DNA of 49,795 nucleotides from Candidatus Alcyoniella australis. Its GTDB lineage: Bacteria; Lernaellota; Lernaellaia; JAVCCG01; Alcyoniellaceae. The position numbers and the translations under genes were made by a program. The number at the start of each line of letters is the position of its first letter. Positions within the stretch are counted from its first letter, which is position 1. A model generated the notes under the pieces. It saw only the letters and a list, made by a program, of their open reading frames with translations, was not told where the DNA came from and ran no database searches. This document shows positions 1-38,026 of this stretch, piece by piece. The stretch lies in contig JAVCCG010000141.1 of assembly GCA_030765605.1 (NCBI GenBank), positions 1 to 49,795 on the forward strand, written 5' to 3'.

Positions 1-507
1 TATTTGGGCTCGCGGATAATGGGATTGTCCTTTGAGCCGGACTGGAACGCCGGCCTGGGGCAGGACGGCGCTCACTTCGGCAGCAGCGTCTCCACGGCCG
101 GCGACGTGAACGGCGACGGGTACGATGACGTGATCGTGGGCGCGCCGGATTACAGCAGGGGCCCGCAGCAGGATGATGAGGGCGGCGCTTTTGTCTATCA
201 CGGCACCTTCTTCGGCTGCGAGATCGACGGCGAGCACTACGGGCCGGGCGAGGCGAACCCGGACAACGTCTGCCTGTTGTGCGAACCGGACCAATCACAG
301 GACCAGTGGTCGTACAACGACGGCTCGGCCTGCGACGACGGCCTGTTTTGCAACGGCGAAGATGCCTGCCTAGAAGGAGATTGCCAGGAGCATGCGGGCG
401 ACCCGTGTGAGACTCAGGACGAAGTCTGCAACGAACAGACCGACGCTTGCGATGATGCGGACAACGACCAGGGAGATGATGACGATGATTCGTCGTGCTG
501 CGGTTGA
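1..507 (+). CDS. FG-GAP repeat exported protein, C-terminal part, with Asp-rich CCG tail (5' partial)
   Basis: The reading frame is open to the left edge, so this is the C-terminal end of a larger protein. It begins in an integrin-alpha-like FG-GAP blade (FGSSVSTAGDVNGDGYDDVIVGAP is split by the usual Ca-binding DVNGDGYDD loop), normally one of several blades of an extracellular beta-propeller. A Cys-rich segment follows with the DGLFCNG..C..G.C pattern known from exported proteins of deltaproteobacteria-like lineages; its cysteines probably form disulfides. The protein ends with a DDDDD tract and then SSCCG. The same kind of ending occurs in the secreted protein that ends at 3097. Likely extracellular or cell-surface; its ligand cannot be told. 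Family and partial status are secure, the role is not. Confidence 0.8.
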   Translation, partial: YLGSRIMGLSFEPDWNAGLGQDGAHFGSSVSTAGDVNGDGYDDVIVGAPDYSRGPQQDDEGGAFVYHGTFFGCEIDGEHYGPGEANPDNVCLLCEPDQSQDQWSYNDGSACDDGLFCNGEDACLEGDCQEHAGDPCETQDEVCNEQTDACDDADNDQGDDDDDSSCCG

Positions 508-514
508 CGTGCTG

Positions 515-1081
515 ATGAACAGGGCCGCGCTGCTGGCGATCGCCTGCTCGCTGTTGGTGCTGTGCGCGGCGTGCGGCCATGACGACCATGACGACGATGA
601 CGACCAGGGGGAAGACCCGGAGGGAGACGTGGTCAGCGACCCGCAACAGGGTCTGATGTGGCAAATCAAGCCGACCGCCGACTATCTTGACTGGCAGCAG
701 GCCGAGGAATACTGCGCGAGCCTCAGCTACGCGGGCTACGGCAACTGGCGCCTGCCCACAATTTCCGAGTTACGCAGTCTGATCCGCGGATGCCTGGATA
801 CAGAATCGGGTGGAGCATGTCGCGTTGAGGACGACTGCCTGGGGTACGATTGCGCAAACGAGGGGTGCGATGGTTGCTTGTATGGCAACGGACCGGCCGA
901 TGGCTGCTACTGGCCGGCCGCGCTGGTCGGCGATTGTTTCTTCTATTGGACCAGCTCGGAGGTCGAGGACTACGAGGTCCGCGTCTGGACCGTCTACTTC
1001 AACGAGGCGTTTATCTCGCCCAATCCCAAGGTCAGCACCTGCGATTATTATGGAGCCACGCGCTGCGTGCGCTCCCTGTGA
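515..1081 (+). CDS. DUF1566 (Lcl C-terminal domain) lipoprotein
   Basis: A 188-residue protein with a lipoprotein signal peptide: MNR, a hydrophobic stretch, then LCAAC as the probable lipidation site (Cys at -3 is atypical for a lipobox). An Asp/His-rich linker (HDDHDDDDD) follows. The rest fits the DUF1566/Lcl_C family, seen in phrases such as QGLMWQ, NWRLPTISELRSLI, YWTSSE and a final CVRSL; these domains occur in surface lipoproteins of Gram-negative bacteria. Several cysteines in an inserted loop (CRVEDDCLGYDC, CDGCLYG) may form disulfides. The start is uncertain: an in-frame ATG at 485 has a better ribosome site (GGGAG at 471-475) and would overlap the preceding gene by 23 bases, while the ATG at 515 gives the more normal signal peptide. 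Function unknown. Confidence 0.75.
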   Translation: MNRAALLAIACSLLVLCAACGHDDHDDDDDQGEDPEGDVVSDPQQGLMWQIKPTADYLDWQQAEEYCASLSYAGYGNWRLPTISELRSLIRGCLDTESGGACRVEDDCLGYDCANEGCDGCLYGNGPADGCYWPAALVGDCFFYWTSSEVEDYEVRVWTVYFNEAFISPNPKVSTCDYYGATRCVRSL

Positions 1082-1605: not shown

Positions 1606-1618
1606 GGAGGTTGTCTTG
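1606..1618 (+). promoter_or_regulatory. Ribosome binding site and TTG start of the 493-residue secreted protein
   Basis: GGAGG at 1606-1610 lies five bases before a TTG at 1616. Starting here gives MGRLSILTILLLIVATAPAVA, a clean Sec signal peptide. An in-frame codon further upstream (1523) would put 31 polar residues ahead of the signal peptide and overlap the promoter region of fxsA, so it was not chosen. Confidence 0.75.
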
Positions 1619-3097
1619 GGCAGATTGAGCATATTGACGATCCTGTTGTTGATCGTAGCGACTGCGCCCGCTGTTGCCGATGACTTCGACCCGTACCTCA
1701 ACGGCAAGGCCGAGGACTATCAGCAGTGGATCGAGAACTGGTGGCACACCGGCGATCTGGGCGGGCTGACCACCGTGGCCTTGTTCAGCGACGAGACCTA
1801 CACCGACGTCACCTGGCTGCACAACCAGGGCGACAGCATGATCTGGACCGGGATGTACCTCGCGGCCGAATCCCAGCGCTACATCATCACCCAGGACCCT
1901 GCGGCCCGCGAGGAGGTGATCCGTATTGTCGGGTACATGCACGACGCAATGCAGATCACCGATACGCCGGGCTACATCCCGCGCTACGCTGCGCACGATT
2001 CGTGGCCCTGGAACTGCAACTTCCCGGACGATCACGGCTGGAAGGTGCACGGCAGCGGCGAGTGGGAGGACTACTTCTGGGTCCACCAGACCAGCCGCGA
2101 TCAATACAGCGGCTACTGGTACGGCATGACCTGGGCCTACCAGGCGTTGGGCGACGAGGACCACGACGTGCGGCAGATCATCCGCGAGGACCTTGCATCT
2201 GTGGTGCAGATGCTCGAGGAGAACCAGTGGAACATCCGCGATGAGAACGGCGAATACACGGGCAACAACGCAGCATGGATAGGGCCGCTCAAACGTTTGG
2301 CCTGGCTGGTGCAAGCAGCCTACGTGATCGACGAGCCGTACTACTGGGAGCTGCTCGACCTGCAGTTCGATCTCAACAAGCCCTATTTGCCCGTGGACGT
2401 CAGCGCGTTTCTCAACCGCTACCAGGAGTACTACGGCAACAACCTGCGGCACCTGGACTTCCAGGCGATCTTCCGCCTGTGGCCGATGGACTCGCGCCTG
2501 TATCACTTCTGGGAGCTGTGGCAGAACTACAACCGGCCGTGGGTCGAGGGGACCTACAATCCGTGGTTCGACGCAGTGCACGTCACCGGCTGCCTGCGGC
2601 TAGGCCATTGCGACGAGGCCGAACTGCAACAGATTGAGGACGACACGCTGCTGACACTCAACCAGTATTGGGATCCGCCGGACTACAAGCGCGCCATCAC
2701 CTGCTCGGAGATGGAGCTCGATCCGCTCTCCGTGTTGCTTGCGCAGTTGACCGAGATTTTCCCGTTTCTCGAAGGCCTGATTCGCATCGAGCCCCAGACC
2801 CGCGACGCTCGTCAGCTCAACGACCGGCACTGGACCGATATGTACTGGCAGAGCTCGGGCGTGTTCCAGGCCGCATGCAGCCATCCCGAGGATCGCAACC
2901 TGGTGGGTTCGGGATTTGATTACCTGCTGGCCTACTGGGTCAATGTCTACTACGGCGTGTTGCCCGGAGAGGGGCCCTACGATGACGACGACGACGTGCC
3001 TGATGACGACGATGATGATGTGTCCGACGATGACGAGGAAGACGATGACCAAGCTGGCGATGACGACGATGACCGCGATGCAAAGTGCTGCGGTTGA
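1616..3097 (+). CDS. Secreted protein of unknown family with Asp-rich C-terminal tail ending in CCG
   Basis: A 493-residue exported protein from a TTG start with a good ribosome site. The signal peptide ends near APAVA-DD. The body (about residues 25-460) is rich in Trp, Tyr and acidic residues. It has the look of an all-helical (alpha/alpha)-barrel: GDSMIWTGMYLAAESQRYI, then repeated helix pairs with aromatic faces, as in several secreted glycan- or lipid-acting enzymes; no catalytic residues can be assigned. The C-terminal 40 residues alternate Asp runs with VP, VS, EE, QAG and RDAK and end in CCG, like the FG-GAP protein ending at 507. A hypothetical protein, probably extracellular or anchored through its tail. 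Confidence 0.7.
   Translation: MGRLSILTILLLIVATAPAVADDFDPYLNGKAEDYQQWIENWWHTGDLGGLTTVALFSDETYTDVTWLHNQGDSMIWTGMYLAAESQRYIITQDPAAREEVIRIVGYMHDAMQITDTPGYIPRYAAHDSWPWNCNFPDDHGWKVHGSGEWEDYFWVHQTSRDQYSGYWYGMTWAYQALGDEDHDVRQIIREDLASVVQMLEENQWNIRDENGEYTGNNAAWIGPLKRLAWLVQAAYVIDEPYYWELLDLQFDLNKPYLPVDVSAFLNRYQEYYGNNLRHLDFQAIFRLWPMDSRLYHFWELWQNYNRPWVEGTYNPWFDAVHVTGCLRLGHCDEAELQQIEDDTLLTLNQYWDPPDYKRAITCSEMELDPLSVLLAQLTEIFPFLEGLIRIEPQTRDARQLNDRHWTDMYWQSSGVFQAACSHPEDRNLVGSGFDYLLAYWVNVYYGVLPGEGPYDDDDDVPDDDDDDVSDDDEEDDDQAGDDDDDRDAKCCG
2980..3082 (+). repeat. GAY-codon low-complexity tract (Asp-rich linker)
   Basis: A run of GAT/GAC codons encodes the Asp-rich tail of the secreted protein. Similar shorter tracts occur near 460-490, 585-605, 3262-3290 and, on the minus strand, 37800-37890, always inside exported proteins or lipoproteins. 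They are coding low-complexity sequence, and may be slippage-prone. Confidence 0.8.
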
Positions 3098-3184: not shown

Positions 3185-5122
3185 ATGTCCCGTATCAGCC
3201 TGTTCAAGTTGCTGCCGTTGCTGTGCGTGGCGCTGTTGCTCACGCTGTGCATTGCCTGCGAATCAGGCGACGATGACGACGACGACCAGGCGCCTCCCGA
3301 TGCCGTGAGCAGCGCCAGCCCGGACGTAGTGTCGGCCCAACTGGGCGGCATGCACTCGGGGTGGGGCAACGCCGACTGCGCCGGGTGCCATGGACAGATG
3401 CACTACGATGGTTTTCTCGACGGCGAGTGCGTGACCTGCCACGGTTCCAACGGCGCGCCGTTGCGGCCCGCCGGACACGCCCTTGACCAATGCTCGAGCT
3501 GCCACGCGGGGAGCCATGCGGCGCTCAATTTCGTGGACGAACGCCACTGCACGGCCTGCCACAAGTTCGACCCGCAGATCCAGTGCCCGGCAGAGCAAGA
3601 CGTCGACGTGGTGGTGATCGGCGCGGGCGGCGGCGGCGTGGCTGCCGCGGCAGCCCTGGCGCTGGCCGGGATGGACGTGGTGCTGATCGAGAAGCACTAC
3701 AAGGTCGGCGGTTACATGACCACCTTCCAGCGCGACGGCTACACCTTCGAGGCTTCGCTGCACGCCATGAGCGGCCTGGGCGAGGGCGGCTCGACCCGCG
3801 CGATGTTCGAGGACCTGGACATCATGCATCGCATAAATCCGATTTTGTGCGACCCGACCTACCGCGCGGTCTTTCCCGGAGTCGACGTGCTGGTGCCCGG
3901 AGACATCTGGGAGTATCGCAAGCTGCTGATCGAGAGCTATCCCGACGAGGAAGACGGGATCGTCGAGCTGTTCGAGGACATGCGCCGTTGCAGCAGGGCG
4001 CTACAAGAGCTGATGGCCTTGGGCGATGGCGTAACCATCGAAGAGATTTTTAAGCTGGTCAACGATCTGCCCTACGCGATCAATCTGCTGCGCTACATGG
4101 ACATGCCGCTGGCCGAGATGGTCGGCCAGTACATTAACGATCCTGAGCTGGTCGGACTGTTCGAACAATTAGTAACCTACATCGGCCTGGGCCCCTCCGA
4201 GCTGCAGGCGCTGTACTTCGTTACGATGTGGGGCGGCTACCACCTCGAGGGCTTCTACTATTTCGAGGGTGGGTCGGCCACCATCACCGAGGGGCTGGCG
4301 CAGGTGTTCCTTGAGAACGGCGGCAGCCTGCGGCTGAACACCACCGCTACCAAGATTGTGATCCAGGACGGCCGCGCGGTGCAGGTGCAGACCGCGGACG
4401 ACGCTTGCTACAACACGCGCTACGTGGTCTCCAACGCCAACGCTTGGTCCACACTGCTGGGCATGGTCGGCGAGGAATATCTCCCCGCCGATTACGTGCA
4501 GAAGCTCAAGGGCATGACCCTGGGCGTGGCCACGCTGCAGGTTTTCATGGGCGTGGATTACGATTACAACGACCTGTTCCAGGGCTCGCACGAGCTGATG
4601 GTCAACGAGTCCAACGATATGGACGTTAACTTCCAGTATTCCTCCAGCGGTGATCTGGAAAACACGTTCTTCATTATCTCCAACTACTCCAAGGTCGATC
4701 CGGGCTTCGCGCCCGAGGGTAAGAGCTCGATCTCGCTCACGACCTATCTGCCCTACGACATCGACCAACGCTGGGGATTCGACGAGGGCTACGAGGAGTA
4801 CCTGGAGTACCGCGAGAACGTGGCGCAGGTGTTGATCGCACGCGCAGAGGAATATTTGCCCGGACTGTCTGAACACATCGAGGTCTTGGAGATCGGCACG
4901 CCGGTGACCAACGAGCTGTTCAGTTTCAACCCGGCGGGCACGATCCTGGGTTGGGCCAATACCGTGGACCAGGGCACGTTGCGCAGGCTGCAGCAGCAGA
5001 CACCGATCGAGAACCTCTATCTTGCCGGCGCCTATACTTTCCCCGGCGGCGGGCAGTCCGCAGTGCTCAGCTCGGGCCAGACCGCGGCATCGATGATCCT
5101 CGAGGCTGAGGCGGATCAATAA
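3185..5122 (+). CDS. Lipoprotein fusing a tetrahaem cytochrome c domain to a CrtI/phytoene-desaturase-like FAD oxidoreductase
   Basis: A 645-residue protein with an AAGGAGG site four bases before the ATG. Residues 1-25 form a lipoprotein signal (LCIAC, lipid Cys25), followed by a DDDDDD linker. Residues 65-126 hold four CxxCH haem-c motifs (CAGCH, CVTCH, CSSCH, CTACH). From residue 140 there is an FAD-binding Rossmann motif (VIGAGGGGV, with Glu169 at the end of strand 2), VGGYMTTFQRDGYTFE, and near the C-terminus NLYLAGAYTFPGGG with a following SGQTAA, as in phytoene desaturase and carotenoid-isomerase-like oxidoreductases. By analogy with periplasmic flavocytochromes c, the haems could pass electrons to or from a flavin acting on a hydrophobic or unsaturated substrate. 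The substrate is unknown. The domains are certain; the joint function is inferred. Confidence 0.88.
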   Translation: MSRISLFKLLPLLCVALLLTLCIACESGDDDDDDQAPPDAVSSASPDVVSAQLGGMHSGWGNADCAGCHGQMHYDGFLDGECVTCHGSNGAPLRPAGHALDQCSSCHAGSHAALNFVDERHCTACHKFDPQIQCPAEQDVDVVVIGAGGGGVAAAAALALAGMDVVLIEKHYKVGGYMTTFQRDGYTFEASLHAMSGLGEGGSTRAMFEDLDIMHRINPILCDPTYRAVFPGVDVLVPGDIWEYRKLLIESYPDEEDGIVELFEDMRRCSRALQELMALGDGVTIEEIFKLVNDLPYAINLLRYMDMPLAEMVGQYINDPELVGLFEQLVTYIGLGPSELQALYFVTMWGGYHLEGFYYFEGGSATITEGLAQVFLENGGSLRLNTTATKIVIQDGRAVQVQTADDACYNTRYVVSNANAWSTLLGMVGEEYLPADYVQKLKGMTLGVATLQVFMGVDYDYNDLFQGSHELMVNESNDMDVNFQYSSSGDLENTFFIISNYSKVDPGFAPEGKSSISLTTYLPYDIDQRWGFDEGYEEYLEYRENVAQVLIARAEEYLPGLSEHIEVLEIGTPVTNELFSFNPAGTILGWANTVDQGTLRRLQQQTPIENLYLAGAYTFPGGGQSAVLSSGQTAASMILEAEADQ

Positions 5123-36272: not shown

Positions 36273-37967
36273 TCAAAAGTCGAAGCGCGAGTCTGTGAGC
36301 CAATCAAGACTCAGGCCGGCGAAGCTGATTTTATCGTACGGTAGATCTTCTCCGCGTTCGTAGAGCAGTCCGAAATCACCGTTGTTCAGGCCGACAAGAT
36401 CCGAGTAAGCGGACGGACCCAGGTGCAGCCATTTGGCGATCGGCCAGGCAGCTCCCTGGTCAAGACTCAATCGAACGGTCATTGCCTCGCGTTCCGTTGA
36501 TGCTGGATTGGAAAACAACAGCAGCCGGCCCGTTGCGGGACGATCAAGGTCGAGGATCGATCCCTGGCAAATCGGCTCGACCAACCAGTAATTATCATAC
36601 GGCTCGCCCCAGCTCAATCCGTTATCCGTGCTGATCGCTGCGGCTCGGCGATTGAGGCCGCGCCGACTGCGCATGTTCAGCAGTAGTGATCCGTCATCGA
36701 GCTGCACCACGGTCGACTCGTTGGTGCGCCCGCCGGGTACAGTGCCGCCGATGCGCCATGAGGCTCCATGATCATCGCTGAGGATTACGTGAGAGAAGGT
36801 CCGGTCCGCTCCGGTCCCGGTCGTATGATCGCAAGGCACGACCAATGTACCGTTCTCAAGCTGAACGCCATGGCATGGTCCCGTGGCGTACCAGCGCCAG
36901 TCGGGCAGCTTGACCTGAGCGCTGATCAACGATGGAGCGGCCCAACTTAGACCGTCGTCGTCACTGTGTGTGATCCAGACCTCGCGGCTGCCGATGCCGC
37001 GGTTGATTTGCCCCTCGTTGATCTGGCCGTCGTTGGTGGTGAACGGCAACCAGATCCGGCCGGTGTCGCGATCGACGATCGGTGCGGGATTGCCGCAGGT
37101 GTCGGCGCCGAAATCGCAGACCACGATCAACGCACTCCAGGAAATACCCTGATCTACGCTGCGTTTGAGCACCAGATCGATATTTCCGCTGTCCCCGAGA
37201 TTGTCCACACGTCCTTCGCAAAATGCCAGCAGCGTTCCATCAAGCGTGCGCGTGATGGCGGGAATGCGGAACGTACCGTATCCGTCGTCCCCGGCGATAA
37301 AGATGTCGGTCTGGTAAGGCTCAGCACTAAGCGGGTAGAGGTATCCGTAAGCTCGGAAATCGTGAACTCTTAGTGTGGCTTTTGAAGGACAGAGACCGAT
37401 CGTGCCCAGTTCGCCGGGAAAGTTCATTAAATAAACCGTCTGCTGTTGAACGCGGATGAGTAGTTCAATATCTGAACGAACCAGCTCTACGGTTATCGCC
37501 TGGTTCCAATCAAGATTAAGGGGCGGAAGCTCAACCCGGTCGGCATTAAACATCGGACCTTGCAGCACGGCCCTGTCCAGCAAGTCCGAGAGAATAAAGC
37601 GACTGTTGCCGTTGATTACAATCGACGCAGAGGAGCGTTGGAGATTCGTTCCGCTGAGGGTGACGCTGATCGTAAAATCACCCTGATTCAATCCATGATC
37701 GCCGTGAAGAAAATTGTAGCGTCCGCTGCCCTCTAGATAACCCGAACCCTTTAGCCAGGGCTCTCCATTGATTCGGACGGCAAGTGGTACGCCGTTATCA
37801 ACAAAGACGATTTCAAATGGCTCGTCGTCGCTTTGCCCAGCGTCGTCTTCACCCTCTGGCGGATCGTGCTGATCGTCATCAACAGGATCATCGGCTTGAT
37901 CAACGCAGCACGGCAATGCGAGCAGTGTGATCAGCAGCAGAAGCAGAGGAAGCAATCGCAACTTCAC
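36273..37967 (-). CDS. Sialidase (GH33-type) lipoprotein with N-terminal lectin-like domain
   Basis: A 564-residue exported enzyme: a lipoprotein signal (LLALPCC), an Asp-rich linker (about residues 23-48), a beta-sandwich domain (about 50-205) and a six-bladed sialidase propeller. The FRIP motif is at 233-236 with the first Arg of the triad, followed by AFCEGR, and at least five Asp-boxes are visible (SVDQGISW, SDDDGLSW, SDDHGASW, STDNGLSW, SLDQGAAW). Near the end NESTVVQL, then AYSDLV with the likely Tyr nucleophile and LLYERG with its Glu partner are present, so the active site looks complete. It would release sialic or related nonulosonic acids outside the cell. No sialic-acid uptake or catabolic gene is in the window. 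Sugar specificity cannot be stated. Confidence 0.88.
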   Translation of the reverse strand: MKLRLLPLLLLLITLLALPCCVDQADDPVDDDQHDPPEGEDDAGQSDDEPFEIVFVDNGVPLAVRINGEPWLKGSGYLEGSGRYNFLHGDHGLNQGDFTISVTLSGTNLQRSSASIVINGNSRFILSDLLDRAVLQGPMFNADRVELPPLNLDWNQAITVELVRSDIELLIRVQQQTVYLMNFPGELGTIGLCPSKATLRVHDFRAYGYLYPLSAEPYQTDIFIAGDDGYGTFRIPAITRTLDGTLLAFCEGRVDNLGDSGNIDLVLKRSVDQGISWSALIVVCDFGADTCGNPAPIVDRDTGRIWLPFTTNDGQINEGQINRGIGSREVWITHSDDDGLSWAAPSLISAQVKLPDWRWYATGPCHGVQLENGTLVVPCDHTTGTGADRTFSHVILSDDHGASWRIGGTVPGGRTNESTVVQLDDGSLLLNMRSRRGLNRRAAAISTDNGLSWGEPYDNYWLVEPICQGSILDLDRPATGRLLLFSNPASTEREAMTVRLSLDQGAAWPIAKWLHLGPSAYSDLVGLNNGDFGLLYERGEDLPYDKISFAGLSLDWLTDSRFDF

Positions 37968-38026
37968 AAATCCGATATATTAGAGTTCGCGATCAATGCT
38001 AACAGAAGATGAGGGACGTAGTCATG

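Follow-up and report, generated by a model that had tools for sequence, protein, structure and literature searches.

Do the Asp-rich run and the Cys-Cys-Gly that close two otherwise different exported proteins of Candidatus Alcyoniella australis form a tail that the cell recognises, and, if so, what does the tail do? An initial annotation of the window (the whole 49,795-nucleotide stretch of DNA analysed here) had claimed such endings for an FG-GAP protein and for a protein finishing at position 3097, and had proposed a new sorting tail for anchoring, modification or cross-linking. Both endings are confirmed. The FG-GAP protein (positions 1 to 507, + strand; PF01839, E=4.7e-10) has lost its 5' part to the contig end, so that its frame is open from base 1 and stops at 505-507; its Asp-rich tail (451 to 504, + strand), DDADNDQGDDDDDSSCCG, closes with DDDDDSSCCG and has Cys-Cys-Gly at the extreme C-terminus. 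The second tail protein (1616 to 3097, + strand) probably starts at a TTG codon, carries an SPase-I type signal without a lipobox (MGRLSILTILLLIVATAPAVA, with DD directly after the cut), and has the C-terminus DDDDDRDAKCCG before a stop codon at 3095-3097; its Asp-rich spacer and tail together comprise 38 residues (2981 to 3094, + strand), of which the last are RDAKCCG.

Such endings are far more frequent in this genome than expected by chance. In 4.29 Mb of sequence on 157 contigs, TGYTGYGGNTRA occurs at 91 sites vs. 27 for the backwards pattern, and the stricter pattern DDxxCCG-stop occurs 20 times vs. 0 for its backwards counterpart. Reading every TGYTGYGGNTRA site in frame yields about 32 Asp-rich ends, the commonest being DDDDDDSGCCG directly before the stop, and about 30 unrelated exported proteins of the genome carry an Asp-rich ending closed by CCG. 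The Cys and Gly codons vary freely, with all synonymous codons and all three stops in use; conservation of the tail therefore acts at the protein level.

The bodies that carry the tail are unrelated to one another: calcineurin-like phosphoesterase, GDPD, papain, M14 peptidase with PKD, subtilase (S8), GDSL lipase, amidase, kelch, beta-propeller repeats and FG-GAP. Choice-of-anchor J and Z domains also occur on tail proteins, the Z match lying below its own cut-off; choice-of-anchor is the NCBI name for domains found ahead of alternative anchors. The body of the second tail protein (1679 to 2956, + strand) is an alpha/alpha-toroid domain of a family that no Pfam model matches and that gives 7-18 matches per class genome. 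AlphaFold predicts a confident helical toroid (pLDDT 93.8) with weak PDB matches to GlcNAc/cellobiose 2-epimerases, GH9 and GH76, and a PDB sequence search with this body returned no convincing relative.

The anatomy of the tail is simple. Of 133 collected tails, 127 have Cys at -3, nearly all have Gly or Cys at -1 and -2, and more than four fifths have Asp at -7 to -10. These tails were gathered partly by a pattern that itself fixes Cys at -3; in a family set gathered by homology only, and with its ends read by eye, Cys is at -3 in 19 of 21 tails, the remaining two ending GGGCG. The acidic spacer spans about 15-105 residues, and the cap reads CCG, CCGC or GCGC at the stop. Further tail-like endings in the class are DDDDDDDFCGG, DDGCG and EASCGCGC (L351, L352 and L374). 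Where the start of a tail ORF can be read, a heuristic mostly finds a Sec signal peptide of the SPase-I type. No transmembrane helix follows the signature, since the stop codon comes directly after it or no more than about two codons later, and no Arg cluster or basic C-terminal end was found in the tails, as the initial annotation had claimed. A helix hidden by read-through can be rejected, as nothing helix-like appears in the translated bases downstream of the tails.

It is possible that this cap is a disulfide tail, in which the Cys pair joins tail proteins to one another or to a surface partner while the acidic run serves as a spacer or calcium binder. In its favour, most tails hold two or three Cys, adjacent and suited to oxidation outside the cell, and Asp runs could bind divalent ions. 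However, some members keep just one Cys (GGGCG, GCGL or RRCGA at the stop), and this explanation does not account for the exclusion of the lipobox or for the exchanges with lipid anchors and with a MYXO-CTERM-like end, all considered below.

The tail is a feature of a whole class, whose seven genomes in three families belong to FEN-1099, a phylum proposed as Ca. Lernaellota or Podoxiota (PMC13248872). In each class genome, dozens of exported proteins have a long Asp run followed by Cys-Cys-Gly or Cys-Gly-Cys. The six other class genomes carry the form CCGC or GCGC, mostly DDDDDD(G)GCCGC in G001, G003 and G005; DDxxCGC-stop sites number 23, 17, 20, 27 and 12 in G001-G005, respectively, and 2 in G000, and G006 has 0 such sites, yet contains GCGC tails with a different spacing. 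Outside the class, a scan of 283 genomes gave only two stray CGC-stop matches, neither of which we accept as a true tail: one is an 11-residue frame and the other a stray open frame. In a partial scan of a genome collection, C-terminal Asp-rich matches came only from FR_14 (class genome G005). The initial annotation would have been refuted by scarcity of such endings in the genome or by random C-termini in orthologues; the first did not occur, given the about 30 proteins found, nor did the second, as related proteins from six further genera retain it. Its claim of one tail on different bodies also held.

The tail and the N-terminal lipid anchor are never found in one ORF (125 tail ORFs, 34 lipoproteins): a lipobox plus Asp run is present in 0 of the 125 tail ORFs, where two flagged lipobox-like strings sit inside signals that continue to an AxA site, and a C-terminal tail is present in 0 of the 34 lipoproteins with visible ends. 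The lipoproteins of the class instead mirror the tail, with an N-terminal C-(G/S)-(C/S/G)-(G/D)-DDDD, often with a second Cys, and then a long Asp run; as the order is Cys, G/S, Cys, Gly and Asp run, an N-terminal CGCGDDDD is the mirror image of a C-terminal DDDDGCGC. Two neighbouring lipoproteins in the window have this mirror layout and no C-terminal tail: one at 515 to 1081 (+ strand; signal, Cys, GHDDHDDDDDQ) and one at 3185 to 5122 (+ strand; signal, Cys, ESGDDDDDDQ). The latter appears to be an unusual cytochrome-oxidoreductase fusion, with four CxxCH haem-binding motifs (CAGCH, CVTCH, CSSCH and CTACH) ahead of an FAD-binding phytoene-desaturase-like domain. A probable lipoprotein at 36276-37979 (- strand) has an acidic linker, CCVDQADDPVDDDQHDPPEGEDD, and no C-terminal tail. 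Many class lipoproteins (L424, L427, L428, L431, L439, L441, L442 and L462) have the second Cys at +3, as CSCGDDDD or CGCGDDDD.

The same exclusion runs through the helical-toroid family of the second tail protein (L393-L442), about half of which are lipoproteins and half tail proteins. Its 46 members comprise 21 with the C-terminal tail and 25 with the N-terminal lipoprotein layout, a split set by the C-terminal extension, with which the readable N-termini agree. In the 25 lipoprotein-layout members, the chain stops 6-8 residues past the domain and the Cys cap is absent; all 21 non-lipoprotein members, gathered solely by body homology, have an Asp-rich tail with Cys within the last three residues. 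The tree of the 46 members needs one change of anchor state, and the family therefore records one ancient switch held without exception, not many events. Accordingly, an exchange with lipid anchors through many independent events is unsupported. Exchanges other than that in the main family are few; a second lipoprotein/tail pair, L381 vs. L094, shows the same exchange, the N-terminus of L094 being unclassed by the heuristic.

These data all but exclude low-complexity drift, in which expanding GAY repeats would have produced the Asp runs, and the Cys-Gly ends would serve no function. The Asp runs are indeed of low complexity and free to vary in length, in the lipoproteins as well. However, the Cys cap holds its place at the very end of the chain despite free synonymous change, is retained across seven genera, and is missing from the lipoprotein members of the toroid family.

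The closest known system is MYXO-CTERM (TIGR03901, Myxococcota; MrtX), which likewise places a GCGC or CCG signature after an acidic flexible stretch on exported surface hydrolases and adhesins, dozens per genome, and for which a lipid on Cys has been proposed. GCGC is its generic motif. In M. xanthus TraA, both Cys are required for processing/cleavage and surface anchoring; the authors of that work propose that an Lgt-like acyltransferase acts ahead of MrtX, and which enzyme modifies the MYXO-CTERM Cys has yet to be established (PMC11980579). MYXO-CTERM continues into a transmembrane helix and an Arg cluster that are removed by MrtX, whereas the class tail stops at the Cys signature. Both forms occur in the class: at least one match to TIGR03901 above cut-off is present in 7 of 7 class genomes, several reading DDDDDDDGCGCSV, then a helix, then RR; among the subtilases of the genome that contains the window, L069 has a MYXO-CTERM-like end of helix plus RRRR (GLCALSTSSSRVAASLLTALAALLFIARRRRAK, below the model cut-off) and L044 and L081 end in CCG, with 34-35% identity over about 580 residues. 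Conversely, a protein of a Myxococcales MAG reads DDDDGGCCG-TAPV-helix-RRRR. NCBIfam matched neither tail protein of the window, so the TIGR03901 cut-off was not reached, and the CTERM models gave no match up to E 0.1 to ten further tail proteins. The tail has the GCGC/CCG signature already known from MYXO-CTERM, and we therefore infer from sequence alone that the tail is likely a stripped-down MYXO-CTERM variant without helix, Arg cluster or protease, and not wholly unrelated. By analogy, the short tail may resemble the product of the MYXO-CTERM pathway, encoded directly. A CPBP protease/myxosortase is not an obligatory partner of the short tails: PF02517 (CPBP) proteins are found in six of the seven class genomes, their orthology to MrtX not being established, and G003, at 99% completeness, lacks any such match although its tails are numerous.

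Other known systems are less similar. GlyGly-CTERM/rhombosortase, PEP-CTERM/exosortase and LPXTG/sortase also give numerous exported proteins that are otherwise unrelated a common C-terminal tag, but these tags have a hydrophobic helix, a basic end and a processing protease, whereas the class tails have neither helix nor basic end. N-terminal lipoproteins (Lgt/LspA) share with the tail a membrane-adjacent Cys, an Asp-rich spacer and then the body, and swap with it inside one family; however, they are anchored at the opposite chain end, and tail proteins use an SPase-I signal without lipobox or LspA-type cut. In the Bacteroidetes lipoprotein export signal (K-(D/E)2 or Q-A-(D/E)2), acidic residues near the anchored Cys are likewise tied to surface display, but that signal is N-terminal, short and from another phylum, whereas the class tail is C-terminal and up to about 100 residues long. 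One could suppose that the tail, itself unlipidated, is a secretion or docking tag read by an outer-membrane export system (e.g. type II secretion) or a surface receptor. MYXO-CTERM cargo relies on type II secretion (PMC11980579), and acidic residues near the N-terminus steer surface export of Bacteroidetes lipoproteins (PMC5080379). Nevertheless, whichever chain end carries the Cys, the Asp run separates it from the body, which fits a spacer from an anchored Cys, and a pure export signal has no need to exclude the lipobox; we consider this alternative unlikely.

The exchanges with lipid anchors and with a MYXO-CTERM-like end point to anchoring. Since relatives bear either the tail or an N-terminal lipid anchor and never both, the tail very probably anchors proteins at the cell surface without a membrane helix or cutting enzyme, although this is an inference and a surface location has not been shown. 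Lipid on Cys is the leading, though unproven, chemistry: the lipid, the enzyme and the outer-membrane route are hypothetical. A candidate enzyme is suggested by the Lgt homologues: all seven class genomes have three each (fragments joined by hand), vs. at least three matches in 4 of 109 other genomes (fragments counted). Group A adjoins an apparent lspA, plus ileS in two genomes, and therefore looks like the housekeeping copy; the extra copies share no conserved neighbour that could be a tail-processing candidate. The EASCGCGC end adjoins an extra Lgt gene in G001. Among the Lgt types (L353-L372), G000 has one GNFxNSE type (C8) and two of the GCC type, and the other genomes read have the GCC type only. 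The GCC-motif Lgt is rejected as a class-specific enzyme, the motif being common in other bacteria; because CC-containing motifs are widespread, copy number alone is unusual, and because the class is one lineage, that number is a single correlation. A tail-modifying role of the extra copies is thus conceivable and no more than suggestive.

We propose that the tail anchors proteins to the surface by their C-terminus, as a lipoprotein in reversed orientation would: the protein would be exported via Sec with an ordinary signal peptide and its body would fold outside; a flexible, strongly acidic spacer would follow, and then the Cys cap, in which the third-last residue is nearly always Cys; this -3 Cys would be fixed to the outer surface, most likely through thiol lipidation by an Lgt-type enzyme; and the spacer would lie between lipid and body, matching the N-terminal lipoproteins of the same cells. 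As the chain would already end at the would-be myxosortase cut site, helix, Arg cluster and protease would be dispensable. We lean only modestly towards this mechanism as a whole, a surface-anchoring tail that is probably Cys-lipidated, as it is inferred from sequence without data on chemistry, localisation or enzyme. Two further points weigh against it: without a helix, it is unexplained how a membrane enzyme would gain access to the C-terminus, and the multiple Cys of most tails would also fit disulfides or metal binding. The proposal of the initial annotation is supported, with two refinements: the motif is wider than it supposed (CCGC and GCGC as well as CCG) and its signature is the known MYXO-CTERM one; anchoring is supported by the exchanges, and modification and cross-linking are not shown.

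A bolder reading, which in our judgement falls slightly short of being the better bet, is that these are reverse lipoproteins whose -3 Cys is lipidated directly by an extra Lgt-type enzyme, with neither helix nor protease. If it is true, anchoring by a C-terminal lipid can be uncoupled from cleavage at that end: known bacterial C-terminal sorting tags need a membrane helix and a protease, and a Cys cap with an acidic spacer alone would prove both dispensable. With the finished end written into its genes and three Lgt homologues per genome, this phylum would be a clean place to seek the enzyme that modifies the MYXO-CTERM Cys, and the tail would make the surface proteome of an uncultured phylum simple to recognise.
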